Position numbers and translations under genes: made by a program. Source: an uncultured Erythrobacter sp. (GTDB lineage Bacteria; Pseudomonadota; Alphaproteobacteria; Sphingomonadales; Sphingomonadaceae). From it: 64,000 nucleotides of DNA. A model generated the notes under the pieces. It made no database searches and was not told where the DNA came from. It saw only the letters and a program-made list of their open reading frames with translations. The stretch covers positions 62,001-126,000 of the forward strand of contig CAJXJR010000001.1 in the NCBI GenBank assembly GCA_913055155.1, in the 5' to 3' direction. Shown here one piece after another: positions 25,795 through 35,082 of the stretch (position 1 is its first letter; each line of letters starts with the position of its first letter).

Positions 25795-27090
25795 TCACTC
25801 CAGCCCCTCCGGCGCGTGGGCCGGGTCTTCCGGTGGCCTGCTGCGTTCGATCATGCGGCCCAGCGTGGCGCGTTGCACCAGCACGCTGAACAGCACCGCA
25901 CCGAAGGTGGCTGCCAGCAGCAAGGATCGCACCGGGCCTTCGGGCAGCGACAGCGCCAGCGCGATCGATATGCCGCCGCGCAGGCCGCCCCACCACAGCA
26001 CGCCCCATGCGCCCGGCGCCTTGGGCCGCGCGGCAGGCACCACGCGGGTCGACAGCGTTACCGCCGCCGCGCGCGCCAGCAGGGTGATGGGAATGGCCGC
26101 CAGCATCAGCAGGCTTTCGTCCACGCCGGGAACCAGCACGATCATCTCCAGCCCGATCAGCAGGAACAGCACGGAGTTGAGCAGTTCGTCCACCACTTCC
26201 CAGAAGCGGATCACATAGTCGCGGGTGACATCGCTCATGGCGTAGGTCACGCCCTGGTTGCCGATCAGCAGGCCCGCCACGGCCATGGCCAGCGGGCCGG
26301 AAACATGCAGCGCGGCGCACAGGGCATAGCCTCCCATCACCACCGCCAGCGTGATCGTCACCTCCAGCGCATATTCATCCATCGAACGCATGGCGCGAAA
26401 GCCCATGTAGCCCGCGACCAGCCCGATCAGCAGGCCGCCGCCGGCTTCCATCACGAACAGCCGTGCGCCTTCGCCCAAGCTGAAATCCTGCCCCGTCAGC
26501 GCCGCGCCCAGCAGGATGGTGAACACCACGATGCCCACGCCATCGTTGAACAGGCTTTCGCCCGCGAAGCTGGCTTGCAGGCTTTCGTCGACTTTCTCTT
26601 CCTTCAGCACGCCCAGCACCGCCACCGGATCGGTGGGCGCGATCAGTGCGCCGAAGACGAAGTACCAGATCGGCGCCAGCGGCAGGTCCCGCAGCAGGCC
26701 CAGCCCCCAGGTCAGCAGGCCGACGATGACGGTGGAGACGATCACCCCGACGGTGGAAAGCAGCAGCACCGGCACCCAGTCGGCCTTCAGCCGATCCAGG
26801 TCGACATGCAGTGCCCCGGCGAACAGCAGGAAGCTAAGCATGCCCTGCAACAGCGTTTCGGTGAAATTCATCTGCGCCAGCAGTTGAGAGACGGTATCAT
26901 CCAGCGTCAGTCCCGGCAGCAAGATGTTGGACAGCAGCAGCCCGATCGCCGCCACCGCGCCCATCGCGGTCAGCCCGACGACGTGCGGCAAGCGAATGAA
27001 ATGGTGGTTGAACCAGCCCAGCAGCGCGCTGGCGACCACCAGCATGGCGGCCAGGTCGAACGGCGACAGGGCGTGGGCGGTTTCGGGCAT
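25795..27090 (-). CDS. Cation:proton antiporter, CPA1/NhaP type
   Basis: A 431-residue inner-membrane protein with about 12 predicted helices. The CPA1 signature is present: TDPVAVLGVLKE and the paired polar residues in FAGESLFNDGVGIVVF (Asn-Asp) that carry cation and proton. It should exchange Na+ or K+ for H+. The ATG at 27090 lies 5 bp after the stop of the M14 gene, giving tight coupling; a longer start at 27126 would overlap that gene. Order on the minus strand is GCS2 ligase, M14 peptidase, antiporter. Confidence 0.88.
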   Translation of the reverse strand: MPETAHALSPFDLAAMLVVASALLGWFNHHFIRLPHVVGLTAMGAVAAIGLLLSNILLPGLTLDDTVSQLLAQMNFTETLLQGMLSFLLFAGALHVDLDRLKADWVPVLLLSTVGVIVSTVIVGLLTWGLGLLRDLPLAPIWYFVFGALIAPTDPVAVLGVLKEEKVDESLQASFAGESLFNDGVGIVVFTILLGAALTGQDFSLGEGARLFVMEAGGGLLIGLVAGYMGFRAMRSMDEYALEVTITLAVVMGGYALCAALHVSGPLAMAVAGLLIGNQGVTYAMSDVTRDYVIRFWEVVDELLNSVLFLLIGLEMIVLVPGVDESLLMLAAIPITLLARAAAVTLSTRVVPAARPKAPGAWGVLWWGGLRGGISIALALSLPEGPVRSLLLAATFGAVLFSVLVQRATLGRMIERSRPPEDPAHAPEGLE

Positions 27091-27095
27091 GGCGA

Positions 27096-28121
27096 TCAAA
27101 TCCGCTCCATCAGGTAGCACAGGCAATCCTGCTTCACGATCTGCGGGTCGACCGTCAGCATCGCAGGCAGGGCGCTGCGGGTAAGGCGCAGCGTGCCGTC
27201 CTCCACGGCGAACAGGTCGTCGGCGATATCACACCCGGCCTCGTCGATGACTTCCAACGGCCGGGGCAGGCTGGTGGTGCCGAAAGGAGTGCCGGCATCG
27301 ACCATCTGGAAATTGAGCCTGTCGAGCGTGGGCGAGAAGTTCAGCGCGCAGGCTTCCTTACCGAAGTCAAAAGCAATACCGGGCCGCACGTGTACCACGC
27401 CGATGGTGTGGAACAGCTCCAGCGCGTCTCTTTCCGGTGTGGCTTGCGGCAGCGTGTCCAGCGTCAGCACGGCTTCCACAAGGCGCGCGGCAGCCTTGGC
27501 ATTGGCGGGCAGGCCGGGCTGGCCGCATTCGGCGGTGATGGCGGGAACCAGTCCGTCGAACGAAGCCGTCTGCGTGCCGGGCAGGCCCAGGAACAGCACG
27601 GCGCGGCGAGCGAACAATGCGGCCAGCGCCAGCACTTGCGGGTCGCGGTGTGTCACCACCGCGTAATGCGGGTTGCGACCGGTGTTGTTGTGCAGGTCGA
27701 GCGCGGCGAAGGCCCCGCGCTCCACCACGCGCCTGTGCACCGCCGCCATCAGCCTTGCTTCGGGCACCTCGGCCAGGTGCGGTTCCGCGCCCGGCCACAC
27801 GCGGTTGTAATCCGGCTGGCTGTCCAGCCGCCGCAGGCCCTCGCTTGCGGCAGCGATATTGCCCACCATCAGCATCAGGCTGCGCGGCAGCGGGCGGTCC
27901 TGCCATTTGGCCAGCACGCGCTGCATCGCACCAAGGCCGGAATCCTCGTTGCCGTGCAGCAGGATGGATACGAACAGCGGCGCCTTGCGCTCGCCCGGCA
28001 GTTCGATCAGCGTCGGTCCGGGCAGCAGCCGGTGCAGGTCGCGCGCGCTGGCTTGCAGGAAGCCTTCGGGCAGGCGGTCCATGATCGTCAGCTCGGGCGC
28101 GGGCACGGTTGCGGTGCTCAC
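27096..28121 (-). CDS. M14 family zinc carboxypeptidase / aspartoacylase-like protein
   Basis: A 341-residue cytosolic protein of the succinylglutamate desuccinylase/aspartoacylase branch of M14. Zinc ligands are visible in ILLHGNEDSG (His and Glu) and in LDLHNNTGRN (His), with the catalytic Glu in PAITAECGQP. Likely reaction is hydrolysis of an N-acyl amino acid or amide; the substrate is unknown. The GTG at 28121 forms a GTGA overlap with the stop of the GCS2 ligase gene and is preferred to a GTG three codons upstream. The coupling hints that both act on amino-acid or peptide amides. Confidence 0.83.
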   Translation of the reverse strand: MSTATVPAPELTIMDRLPEGFLQASARDLHRLLPGPTLIELPGERKAPLFVSILLHGNEDSGLGAMQRVLAKWQDRPLPRSLMLMVGNIAAASEGLRRLDSQPDYNRVWPGAEPHLAEVPEARLMAAVHRRVVERGAFAALDLHNNTGRNPHYAVVTHRDPQVLALAALFARRAVLFLGLPGTQTASFDGLVPAITAECGQPGLPANAKAAARLVEAVLTLDTLPQATPERDALELFHTIGVVHVRPGIAFDFGKEACALNFSPTLDRLNFQMVDAGTPFGTTSLPRPLEVIDEAGCDIADDLFAVEDGTLRLTRSALPAMLTVDPQIVKQDCLCYLMERI

Positions 28122-29539
28122 AGCCGCCACTCGTGAACAGGCAGGCCGGTGCGCTGGTTCTCGACATAGGCGGCAGTCAGCGCGAACAGGTCCTGGTGGC
28201 GGGCGTAATGCTCCAGCTGCCAGGCGGCCCCGGTGCGCCCGGTGGCAAGGCGCATGGCGATTACCGAGAGATAGTGATCGACCAGGTCTTCCGCCATGCC
28301 CTGCGCGGCAAGGCCTTCCGCCGCCAGCGGCAGCAGGTCTTCGACCACGCTACTTGCCGCGCGCGGCGCGCTATCGCCGGGCCACAAGAGCTCCGCCCCC
28401 AGTCCGTTGCGGGCGGCGGCGTAGAAATTGGCGCGCGCGGTCTCGATCGGTAGTGCCGCCTTGCGTTCGCCGATGCGATCGGCCAGTGCGTGAAGAGCGC
28501 CATAGAACAGCGCGGCATTGGCCATCATGTCGAGGTTGCTGGGCCCGGCGGGCAGCACGCGCTGTTCGATCCGCAGGTGCGGCGTGCCGTCGTCGTCGAA
28601 ACCCACCAACGGGCGGACCCAGCGCCAGATCGTGCCGTTGTGCAGGCGCAAGGCGGGAAAGCGGCTGGCGGGCCTGTCGTCCAGGGAGGGCAGCAGCACC
28701 GGGTATTCCCGCAGGTTCTCGGCAAACAGCTCTGCCGGGTCGTCCCCCAGGTAGTGCGAGCCGAAGATCACGCGCGAGGAGCCATCGGGATGCTGCAGCG
28801 ATTGTTCGAAGGCGGCGATGCGGGTTTCGTGCCACAGTGCCTTGCCGAACAGGAATGGCGAGTTGGCGGACACGGCCAGCAATGGCGCGCTGAGTTGCAG
28901 GGCGCCGTTGTAATGGCGGGCGAACTCGTCCGGCGGCAGTTGCAGGTGCAGTTGCAGCGAGGTAGTGGCCGCCTCCAGCATCACGTCTTCGTAAGCCGCG
29001 GTGAAATGCGGTGCGCCGGGAATGGCGGTATCGATATCCACCTGCAGCGGGGCGTTGTCGCGCTGGCGCATGGCCTCGCGGTTGAGCGCGAGATAGCGGT
29101 TGTACGGCGTCATCGAGGCCAGCGAGAGGTCTTCCTTGCGCAAGGTGGGCAGGGTGCCAATGGTGATGACGGTGTCGACATCCTCGTGCGCGTTAGTGGC
29201 GCAGCAGCGCACCTTCTCGCTCAGGTGCGCGTGCATGCGCTTCAGCCCTTCGCCTGCGAGGGTTTCGACAGGCGCGTTGATCTCCACGCTGAACTGCGAC
29301 AGTTCGGCCACCACTTCGGGATCGTTCAGGCGTTCGAGGAAGCTCTGGTTATGCGGGGCCGGGAAGTGGCTGTGGTCGATCAGCCAGACTTCCAGTTCCA
29401 GTCCGATGTGCGGCCCGGCGCGCGACAGGCCCCCTTCCGCCGCCAGCTGTGCGAAGGCAGCCGTCTCCTCTGCCAGACGCGCGGAAAAGCGCTGGAAATC
29501 CTCGGCGGCAAACCCGTCTGCCGCAATGTCCTGGCCCAA
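28118..29539 (-). CDS. GCS2-type carboxylate-amine ligase (glutamate-cysteine ligase family)
   Basis: About 473 residues of the ATP-grasp-like GCS2 family, which makes gamma-glutamyl or similar amide bonds. Typical segments are GLELEVWLID, FSVEINAPVETL, DVDTVITIGTLPTLR, ALNREAMRQRDNAPLQVDI and SANSPFLFGK, then RIEQRVLPAGPS. It may be the cell's glutathione-precursor enzyme or a YbdK-like ligase; the sequence alone does not settle this. Start: no ATG is available; a TTG at 29539 has GAGCGGGGA about 6 bp upstream. The open frame continues upstream to 30091 but that part is an antisense shadow of the helicase gene. Confidence 0.8.
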   Translation of the reverse strand: MGQDIAADGFAAEDFQRFSARLAEETAAFAQLAAEGGLSRAGPHIGLELEVWLIDHSHFPAPHNQSFLERLNDPEVVAELSQFSVEINAPVETLAGEGLKRMHAHLSEKVRCCATNAHEDVDTVITIGTLPTLRKEDLSLASMTPYNRYLALNREAMRQRDNAPLQVDIDTAIPGAPHFTAAYEDVMLEAATTSLQLHLQLPPDEFARHYNGALQLSAPLLAVSANSPFLFGKALWHETRIAAFEQSLQHPDGSSRVIFGSHYLGDDPAELFAENLREYPVLLPSLDDRPASRFPALRLHNGTIWRWVRPLVGFDDDGTPHLRIEQRVLPAGPSNLDMMANAALFYGALHALADRIGERKAALPIETARANFYAAARNGLGAELLWPGDSAPRAASSVVEDLLPLAAEGLAAQGMAEDLVDHYLSVIAMRLATGRTGAAWQLEHYARHQDLFALTAAYVENQRTGLPVHEWRL

Positions 29540-29610
29540 TCTGCGTCCCCGCTCCGGTGAAGGTGCCAAGCTAGCAGCAACAGCCGCAGCGGGGCAAGGC
29601 GAAGGCTCGC

Positions 29611-32243
29611 CTAAAGCCACATGCTGCGCCGTTCGACCGGGGACCGCAGCCCGGCGACCAGCGATTTCGACCGCGCACGTAGCAGCACCGTGCGACCATG
29701 GGCAGAGCGGGTGAAGATGAGGCGCGCAGGGCCGATGCGTTTCGCCCACAACTGACGGAACATTTCCGCGTCTTCCTTGCGCGTGCCCAGCGGGGCAGGC
29801 ACGGCGTGGTAATCGAGCTGGCGAAAGCCCATGGCCTCGCCTTCGCGGCGCAGGATGTAGCGCGGGTTCTCTACTGGGCCGAGCAGTTCCATCATGGCAT
29901 CGACGAAGCGGTGCTGGTCTGCCCGCGTGCCGCCTTCGATGGTGACGGCGTGGCGACCGCGCAGCCCCTCGCGCACCTGCACGCGGTAGGCCTCCTTGCC
30001 GCGCGACAGGATATCGCACTGCGCCAGAGCCTCCACCAGCACTTCGCCCACGGCCTCCAGCCGCCGTTCCAGCGTGCCGTTGCGCAGCCACAGCCGCGCC
30101 GAGGTGACAAGGCCGGGCAGGGCATAGATCAGCGCCGCACCGCCGCCGATGGCCATGATCGCATCCAGCCCGCCAAGCCCGCGCACGCTGAGGCCCGCTG
30201 CCATGAACCCGCTGCCAAGGCTACCGATCCACGCTGCCTTCAGCGTGTTGCGCACGTGCAAGGTCGCGCTACCCACGCCGCTGCCCACCTCGGCCACCTC
30301 GCGCACTTGTGAGCGCGCGGTGCTGGCCCCCAGAGAGCGTTGCCAGTGGCGCGCGGTATCGGCGCGGTTGCAGGCGCGCCGCATTGTCAGGGCATTGCGA
30401 TCCGCAATGGGCGCAGTCATGGCGATATCGAGCCGGTCCAGGCCGTTCTCGATTACGTTCGTGCCATCTTCCGCCACCCCGTCAAACATCGAGAAGCGGC
30501 GCACCAGGCGAGCGAAATCGGGTCCGGCTTCGCCATCGAGGCCAGCCGGATCGACCGTAGCGAGGTGCCAGATGTTGGCGACCTTTTCCGGAGTATCGGG
30601 ATCGCTGCGGATCGCCCGTCCCCGCATCTGGTTGGACAGCATGTAGCTTGCCGCGTTGCTGGCCAGCACGAGGCTGTTGATCGAGGGCGCATCCCATCCT
30701 TCGCCCAGCAGGGCCTGCGTGCCGACGAGCACGCCGGATTTGGCCCGCCGCAACCAACCGGGTGACCAGCGCCACGCGGCCCCGGTCAGCTGCCGCCGTG
30801 AAATCCAGGCCGCAATAGCCGGGCACGCCGGGCAATTCTGCAAAGGTGAGGTCGCTGGCAGGAATGCCGCAGTCTTCCGCCGCGATACAGGTCGCCTCGC
30901 GTGCGGCCTCGGGCACGATCACCAGCGATCCGGTCAGCACGCCCAGCGGCTGGTCGATGCTGCTGCGGCGCAGGGTCTCGAAAATGGGCACCACGCCAAG
31001 CCGGGCAGGGGCATAGGGCGCGTCGGGCTTGCTCGGCAGTTCGGCGGCGCGGACGTGGTGCTGTCAGCACCGCCAGGCGCAGCCTCTCGCCCAGTTGCGC
31101 AGCTTCTGCATGCGCAATTTCCACCACCGAGGCGAGCTTGCCTGTGCTGCCCGCCAGCACGCGCGCCAGCTCCAGGCTTTCGGAAAAGTCCACGCGCTGG
31201 TTGGTGATAAGGCCTGCCTCGGAAAGCTGGCGCTTCCAGCCCTTTGCGCGCACGTCATCCAGCCGCCATGCGCCAATATGGCGGTGCAGCAGGCATTCCA
31301 GCATCGGTTGCAGCCAGAAGTGGCTGAACTCGGAAACCGCGTTGCCATCGACACCCAGCAGCGCCAGCGGTTCTTCCGGCAGGGGGACGCCGCGTCCGGC
31401 AAGGTAGAACAGCATGGCGGAAAGCTGTTCGGGCGCCTCGAGGATGTCCTCCTGGTGCCGGAAGGGTTCGGCCAGGAAGGGATGCTCCATCAGCATTCCG
31501 GGCAGCTGCGGATCCTGCTGCACCGCGTGCGTCAGAGCGAATACGGCATCGCGGCGCCGCATCAGCGTGGCGACAACGTCCGCATCGGGCTGCGAGAAAT
31601 GCACGTGGTCCTGGTGCGGGGCGAGGTCGCCGTTGCGCACAAGTTCAGGCACGCCGATCTCGGCATCGATGGGGCCGCACAATCGCTCGTAACGCGACCA
31701 CTCGGCATGGCTGGCATCGTAGGGCGGGGTGGCCGTGAGTGCCACGATCGTCACGTCGTCCAGCCGGTCGCGCAGGGCGAACAGCGCGGTCCACCATTCG
31801 CGGCGCAGGTGGTGACATTCATCCAGCACCAGCGTGATCGGGCCAAGCGCGGCCAGCGCGGCGAAATCGGCGTCACGCGTGTGCGCGGCGTGCAGCGCCT
31901 GATAGGTGGCCAGCGTCATGTCGCCGGGGGTCAGGATATCGCGCGAGATGCGCTGTGCGTGGGCTTCCAGCGAAGTCAGGAACAGCGGTTCCAGCCGCTC
32001 TGCCCACTGGTTGCGGATCGTCAGGCTGGGGGAGAGGACAAGGGCAGGGCGTCCGGCGCGGCGCGTCGCCTCCAGCCCCAGCACGGTCTTGCCGCTCCCG
32101 GGGGCTGCGACCACGTGCAGGCGGCCATCGCCCAGATAGTCGTCCATCTCGGCCAGCACCCGCGCCTGGTAATCGCGCCATTCGCCCGAAAAGCGCATGG
32201 CAGCCAGAAGTGGCGGCGTGCTGGCCTGTGGTGCGTCCCCCAT
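29611..32243 (-). pseudogene. Superfamily II helicase with C-terminal membrane hairpin, broken by two frameshifts
   Basis: Three successive minus-strand frames encode one protein: 32243 to about 31059, about 31057 to 30743, and about 30741 to 29611. Removing one base near 31058-31061 and one near 30742-30746 restores an 876-residue reading frame. Helicase motifs are ordered correctly: Walker A APGSGKT (residues 47-53), DECHH (141-145), TATPPYD (170-176) in the first part; TQALLGEGWDAP and QMRGRAIR in the last. After the core, two hydrophobic segments (nt 30106-30237) form a likely membrane hairpin, followed by a conserved-looking C-terminal domain. It is either a decaying gene or two sequencing errors. 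The role is unknown; a defence or RNA-related role is conceivable. Confidence 0.85.
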
Positions 32244-32285: not shown

Positions 32286-32888
32286 TTAGGCCGCCAGCTT
32301 TGCCGCCGTGCGGGCCACGCGCGCACCAAGGTACTTGGCGCCGTCGATCTCCACTGCACTCGGCTGGCGGCTGCCGTCCGGCCCGGCGATGGTGGTGGCG
32401 CCGTAGGGGGCGCCGCCCTTCACCTCGTCCACGCCGTTCTGCCCGCCAAAGCCATAGTCCAGCCCGATGATCGACATGCCGAAGTGCAGCAGGTTGGTGA
32501 TCATCGAGAACAGCGTGGTCTCCTGCCCGCCGTGCTGCGAATTGCTGCTGGTGAACACCGCGCCCGGCTTGCCGATCAGCGCGCCCGATGCCCACACGCC
32601 GCCGCAGGTGTCGAGGAAGGCAGCCATCTGGCTGGGCAGGCGGCCAAAGCGGGTGGGGGCGCCCAGCACCAGGCCGTCATAGTTGCCCAGCGCATCGGGG
32701 CCTTCGATCAGAGCGTGGCTGTCGTCAGTCTGGAAACCGAAGTTCTCCACGATTTCCTGCGGTGCGGTTTCTGGCACGCGGCGAATGTCGGCCTCGTGCC
32801 CGGCCTCGCGGATGCCGGCGGCAACGGCCTCTGCCATCTGCGAGATGTGGTCGTAGGAAGAGTAGTAGAGCACGAGGATGCGAGCCAT
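32286..32888 (-). CDS. wrbA: NAD(P)H:quinone oxidoreductase, WrbA type
   Basis: FMN-binding flavodoxin-like enzyme that reduces quinones by two electrons, avoiding semiquinone radicals. The 200-residue length is standard. FMN phosphate loop at the N-terminus ([14 protein letters not shown]), then [16 protein letters not shown] and [17 protein letters not shown], which is diagnostic of WrbA. It lies 42 bp upstream of the helicase reading frame on the same strand and is divergent from the DUF8021-like genes with a 73-bp gap. Confidence 0.95.
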
Positions 32889-35007: not shown

Positions 35008-35082
35008 TGGTGCCCGGGGGCGGAGTCGAACCACCGACACGACGATTTTCAGTCGTCTGCTCTACCACTGAGCTACCCAGGC
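35008..35082 (-). tRNA. tRNA-Phe (GAA)
   Basis: A 75-nt cloverleaf on the minus strand: acceptor GCCTGGG pairs with CCCGGGC (one G-T), D-arm GCTC-AGTGGTA-GAGC, anticodon stem GACGA/TCGTC with loop CTGAAAA (anticodon GAA), T-arm GGTGG-TTCGACT-CCGCC. The terminal CCA is encoded. It stands just downstream of yacG in the infA-maf-RNase-yacG cluster. Confidence 0.97.

Follow-up and report, generated by a model that had tools for sequence, protein, structure and literature searches.

Closest described motors

Several families of superfamily II (SF2) motors offer points of comparison for the gene described here. Among solved structures, its sequence profile comes closest to the XPB/RAD25 DNA translocases, the best-matching stretch being in lobe 1; RadD and UvrB come further down. 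The lobe 1 profile matches the archaeal XPB/RAD25 structures 6p66 and 2fwr with E-values of about 6e-14 (A1 profile) and about 9e-18 (A2 profile), and human XPB is matched too. The likeness to archaeal XPB and to the XPB of TFIIH extends over about 130–190 residues of lobe 1 and includes the SF2 motifs. However, within the best stretches shown, XPB chains are matched by lobe 1 only, and this family has in addition a long inter-lobe region, a hydrophobic hairpin and a C-terminal domain. The protein is not an XPB equivalog: the best NCBIfam XPB score is 34.6 bits for the N-terminal piece alone, against a cut-off of 610.

Lobe 1 also resembles the motor subunit of restriction enzymes. It scores 60.1 bits with the Pfam ResIII model (PF04851), whose gathering score is 22.5, and the DEAD cut-off is passed as well. 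In contrast to restriction motors, Pfam finds no restriction endonuclease domain in the pieces of the gene examined here, no specificity partner occurs among the neighbours scanned, and the gene stands alone.

ComFA is an SF2 helicase which acts at the membrane in DNA uptake; it has zinc-binding cysteines and a role in competence. The parallel with ComFA would be that of an SF2 motor working at the membrane, but the Pfam matches and deposited annotation of the neighbours reveal no competence context around this family. Another parallel is PbeA, a candidate defence protein of PADLOC, which matches weakly, and over helicase stretches only, within lobe 1 and near motif VI (E 4.8e-10 to 3e-3). No name or assigned job for the family was found in the libraries and papers searched.

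Anatomy of the gene

The window, i.e. the whole stretch of 64,000 nucleotides that was analysed, comes from an uncultured Erythrobacter sp. A single helicase gene lies on its minus strand at 29611..32243, spread end to end over three frames. When the intact relative from the genus genome G013 is compared with the window by tblastn, three collinear pieces appear: one in frame -3 (32255-31062, residues 4-399 of the G013 protein), one in frame -1 (31057-30734, residues 401-508) and one in frame -2 (30732-29614, residues 509-880). A profile of ten intact relatives yields the same three pieces, at model positions 6-395, 396-504 and 504-877. The first piece (31062..32243) contains lobe 1 (ResIII/DEAD; Pfam ResIII E 3.2e-16 on an ORF of 485 residues) with the motifs APGSGKT, DECHH and TATPPYD, and most of the inter-lobe region; its frame stays open as far as 30786. 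The middle piece (30734..31057) holds the end of the inter-lobe region and the start of lobe 2, while the third (29611..30732) carries the rest of lobe 2 with GEGWDAP and QMRGRAIR, the hydrophobic hairpin, the C-terminal domain and the stop codon.

The five motifs follow one another in order across the pieces, as the sequence-only reading had stated, and this succession of Walker A, DExH, TAT, motif V and a motif VI with its arginines is that of an SF2 helicase. The core residues of Walker A, DExH, TATPP, GEGWD and QxRGRxxR are among 80 columns that are invariant across 21 diverse homologues. The N- and C-terminal pieces are 59–79% identical to six of the seven intact homologues found in the genus, and 54% and 48% identical to the seventh, from G035; matches at this level show that the window gene is not a chance assembly of reading frames.

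The description of the locus as one SF2 helicase gene with two shifts of single-base type is thus borne out by the collinear pieces, against both G013 and the ten-sequence profile. The first frame change falls where it had been placed, at 31058..31061, between the end of the frame -3 match and the start of the frame -1 match. The second also exists, but it was put at 30742-30746; since the frame -1 match to G013 continues to 30734 and the frame -2 match starts at 30732, it really lies near 30733 (30732..30734), about 10 bases nearer the 3' end of the gene. The gene has 2633 bases, two of them surplus, and this arithmetic is consistent with the 876–899 residues of the intact copies. A working copy would be one ORF spanning both lobes, but the window copy is spread over three frames; all 27 aligned homologues (the broken plasmid copy L050 left out) are in a single frame. 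The two frame changes would part lobe 1 from lobe 2 and from the putative anchor, and no working motor is expected from the window copy.

Distribution and genomic site

An uninterrupted copy is present in 7 of 39 other genomes of the genus and measures 876–899 residues from stop to stop, while 32 of 40 genus genomes have no full or near-full copy. G011 retains only a shattered tail, about 70–95 residues long and spread over two to three frames, at some 1.3 kb from purC; this indicates that the gene decayed independently in that genome. Two further copies occur in another family of the same order. Relatives are carried by 3 of 385 genomes of the class and 4 of 398 Pseudomonadota genomes (the window's genome counted in both), and by 10 of 296 Bacteroidota genomes, one of the ten being the centre genome itself. 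Four of 72,556 plasmid records hold relatives, including plasmids of Rhodobacterales and Paenibacillus, as do 2 of 50,697 phage records, both of which are unverified scaffolds from human faeces that were filed under phage. A second broken copy of the family, split elsewhere in the gene, is found on plasmid pRSMBA of Rhodovulum sp. MB263 (L050:8059-11183). The deposited annotation at that copy gives a helicase-family gene and a hypothetical gene.

On the minus strand of the window, the order is wrbA, the helicase gene, a glutamate-cysteine-ligase-like gene, an AspA/AstE-like gene and a Na+/H+ antiporter gene. The edges of the site, as defined by comparison of sites, are the upstream neighbour, a WrbA-type NAD(P)H:quinone oxidoreductase (32286..32888, minus strand; NCBIfam PRK03767, E 2.9e-82), and a CPA-type Na+/H+ antiporter (25795..27126, minus strand; Pfam Na_H_Exchanger, E 2.6e-54). 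For the glutamate-cysteine-ligase-family and AspA/AstE-like genes (27096-29560), which lie between the helicase and the antiporter gene, no counterpart was found in the loci of the relatives compared. In the window, G010, G013 and G028, wrbA is on one side of the helicase gene and the antiporter gene on the other. These three genes follow one another on one strand in G013; in G010 and G028 the helicase adjoins the antiporter gene and another gene lies towards wrbA. Six of the seven intact copies of the genus are within about 5 kb of purC, the seventh (G035) being elsewhere. About 2.8 kb from the helicase, on the wrbA side, the window has a tRNA-Phe gene (35008-35082), and the gene content of this stretch varies among relatives.

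For comparison, the 12 kb beside purC was taken from 20 genus genomes in which this place holds no copy; 19 of them lack the gene altogether, and the other is G035. No helicase remnant was detected in these sequences at E <= 0.01. Both wrbA and the antiporter gene are found in 8 of the 20 sites. They are direct neighbours in four of these (L105, L106, L110 and L115), 1–85 bases apart as measured by match ends, while in the other four they are separated by 667–4084 bases of other sequence. The presence of other sequence in half of these sites means that the site is generally variable, rather than a switch between two states.

The setting is different in Bacteroidota, where the gene is in or beside a haem biosynthesis cluster, near hemF, in 6 of 10 loci (L066, L067, L068, L069, L071 and L074; the families of the cluster were named from L067 and L071). 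The divergence of the helicase in these six loci does not track that of its neighbours. The six helicases are 44–53% identical in all 15 pairs, against 83–89% for the nearby hemE copies, which suggests either rapid evolution of the helicase gene or its replacement in place. At other loci, the genes close by include those for gyrase B, DXP synthase and 2-oxoglutarate dehydrogenase.

The possibility of a defence protein had been raised from the sequence, but the genomic context does not back it. The neighbours of the homologues, named by Pfam or by deposited annotation, are mostly housekeeping genes and hence lend no support to an anti-phage role. Ten flanking proteins were compared with PADLOC: a C5 methyltransferase is the one clear defence-type protein, and one other protein, of 1354 residues and encoded directly downstream of the G035 helicase (L038:3051-7112), matches a GajB model over 24 residues and has no match in Pfam. 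No defence gene cluster was found around the homologues, the other flanks having been viewed by Pfam or deposited names only. With six intact homologues and the window pieces as queries, there was no whole-protein match to a component of a PADLOC 2023 system, only partial matches over helicase stretches.

Hydrophobic hairpin and C-terminal domain

Two hydrophobic segments follow the helicase core, as had been noticed in the sequence, where their extent was given as 30106..30237 (minus strand). In the window copy their Kyte-Doolittle peaks over 17 residues are 1.26 and 1.75; the weaker segment is the first, and would be doubtful if taken alone. By hydropathy only, both segments, long enough to span a membrane, recur in 26 of 28 sequences, a set that excludes the broken L050 and is not wholly independent (L040 is almost identical to L041). 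One exception is the Tritonibacter protein L051 (795 residues), which has no hairpin zone; in L038 the second segment is just below threshold. When the alignment is cut into 29 blocks of 30 residues, the two blocks of the zone have the highest mean hydropathy, +0.83 and +0.92 (next 0.55), and mean column identities of 0.32, the lowest of all, and 0.38, other blocks being at 0.34, 0.37 and 0.39. The zone contains the hydropathy maximum of the protein or piece in 21 of 28 sequences, and in 7 of 28 some stretch outside it is as hydrophobic as its best. Lys and Arg outnumber Asp and Glu directly after the second segment in 25 of 28. At the same place, hydropathy reaches about 2.8 over 17 residues in the faecal homologues and in several of those from Bacteroidota.

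The further domain announced beyond the core and the hairpin is indeed present and conserved, with a recurrent NPRY-like stretch and a TRxxxGRxxLLxAR-like stretch. Pfam gives no family for it at a useful level in five tails, only two chance-level matches (E 0.07 and 0.1). The structure models are poor (mean pLDDT of 50.2 and 62.3) and too weak to name a fold.

State of the window copy and possible roles

The breakage is real in the sequence as given, and there is no decay beyond the two breaks. Over 860 shared codons, the non-synonymous distance of the window branch is 0.069–0.086, against 0.067–0.080 for the intact G010 and G013, so that amino-acid change is not accelerated. Moreover, the window copy retains 99 of the 100 near-invariant residues (columns at least 95% conserved in 26 homologues, within the first and third pieces). 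Taken together, these two observations fit either a very recent loss or a sequence artefact. They speak for the explanation that both shifts are errors of assembly or sequencing and that the gene is intact in the living strain, which has a real chance of being correct, at rather less than even odds. Against it, the classic context of such errors is missing, as no base run longer than 3 occurs within at least 33 bases of either break. In addition, two errors within one gene of 2.6 kb would be a coincidence. Across the 56,864 bases of the window covered by ORFs of relatives, no second gene with an internal break was recognised, and the genome (3.1 Mb in 21 contigs) is rated 100% complete with 0.12% contamination. 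Phase variation, which had been listed among the causes, is unlikely, since the runs near the breaks never exceed 3 bases.

The family as a whole is best read as a stand-alone SF2 motor that translocates on DNA and is held at the inner membrane, with an accessory role; this reading, to which we give a probability of roughly 0.45, is tentative. The intact protein would be a superfamily II motor of the XPB/ResIII kind, whose two RecA lobes would hydrolyse ATP and move along DNA, most likely double-stranded. RNA surveillance, the other role suggested earlier, finds no support; by sequence, the solved proteins nearest to the family belong to the DNA-acting XPB/RAD25 group. The two-helix hairpin after lobe 2 would anchor the motor in the inner membrane and leave both ends of the protein cytoplasmic, the conserved C-terminal domain coming after it. 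It is however conceivable, if improbable, that the hydrophobic stretch forms a pair of buried helices which join motor and C-terminal domain in a soluble protein. The segments of the window's lineage are indeed Gly/Ala-rich and weakly hydrophobic, the Tritonibacter protein does without the stretch and seven sequences have an equally hydrophobic one elsewhere, but the strong hydrophobicity at the same place in the faecal and several Bacteroidota homologues, the low conservation and the basic residues that follow argue for a membrane segment. The same membrane-held motor might instead be a helicase for chromosome maintenance or DNA repair, doing an XPB- or RadD-like job at the membrane and not facing incoming DNA. 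Its nearest solved relatives and its mostly housekeeping neighbours, such as the haem genes in Bacteroidota, agree with this, whereas its absence from most genomes of the genus, its breakage in at least two lineages (the window's and G011), which would be odd for a maintenance enzyme, and the very low XPB score make such a job unlikely. A ComFA-like competence motor, helping to pull DNA through the membrane in natural transformation, would suit the anatomy, but with no competence gene among the neighbours named by Pfam or deposited annotation it is very improbable.

Under the preferred reading of a membrane-held translocase, the motor would work on DNA close to the membrane; its most probable part would be an accessory one, directed against DNA entering the cell or serving to handle it. 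Confidence in this role is kept low because the patchy, fast-changing, come-and-go behaviour of the gene resembles that of defence genes, but its surroundings do not. A bolder version, speculative as a whole, is that of an unnamed family of inner-membrane-tethered double-stranded DNA translocases, one gene long, which would patrol DNA arriving at the membrane as a one-protein sentinel; it would span Pseudomonadota, Bacteroidota and Bacillota, bear a C-terminal domain for which no known family was matched here, and come and go at variable sites away from defence islands.

The window copy is itself just a broken member of this family; close relatives with and without the gene, as well as intact copies, are on hand for testing. 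A DNA motor with its own membrane anchor would be unusual, and the architecture recurs across three phyla.
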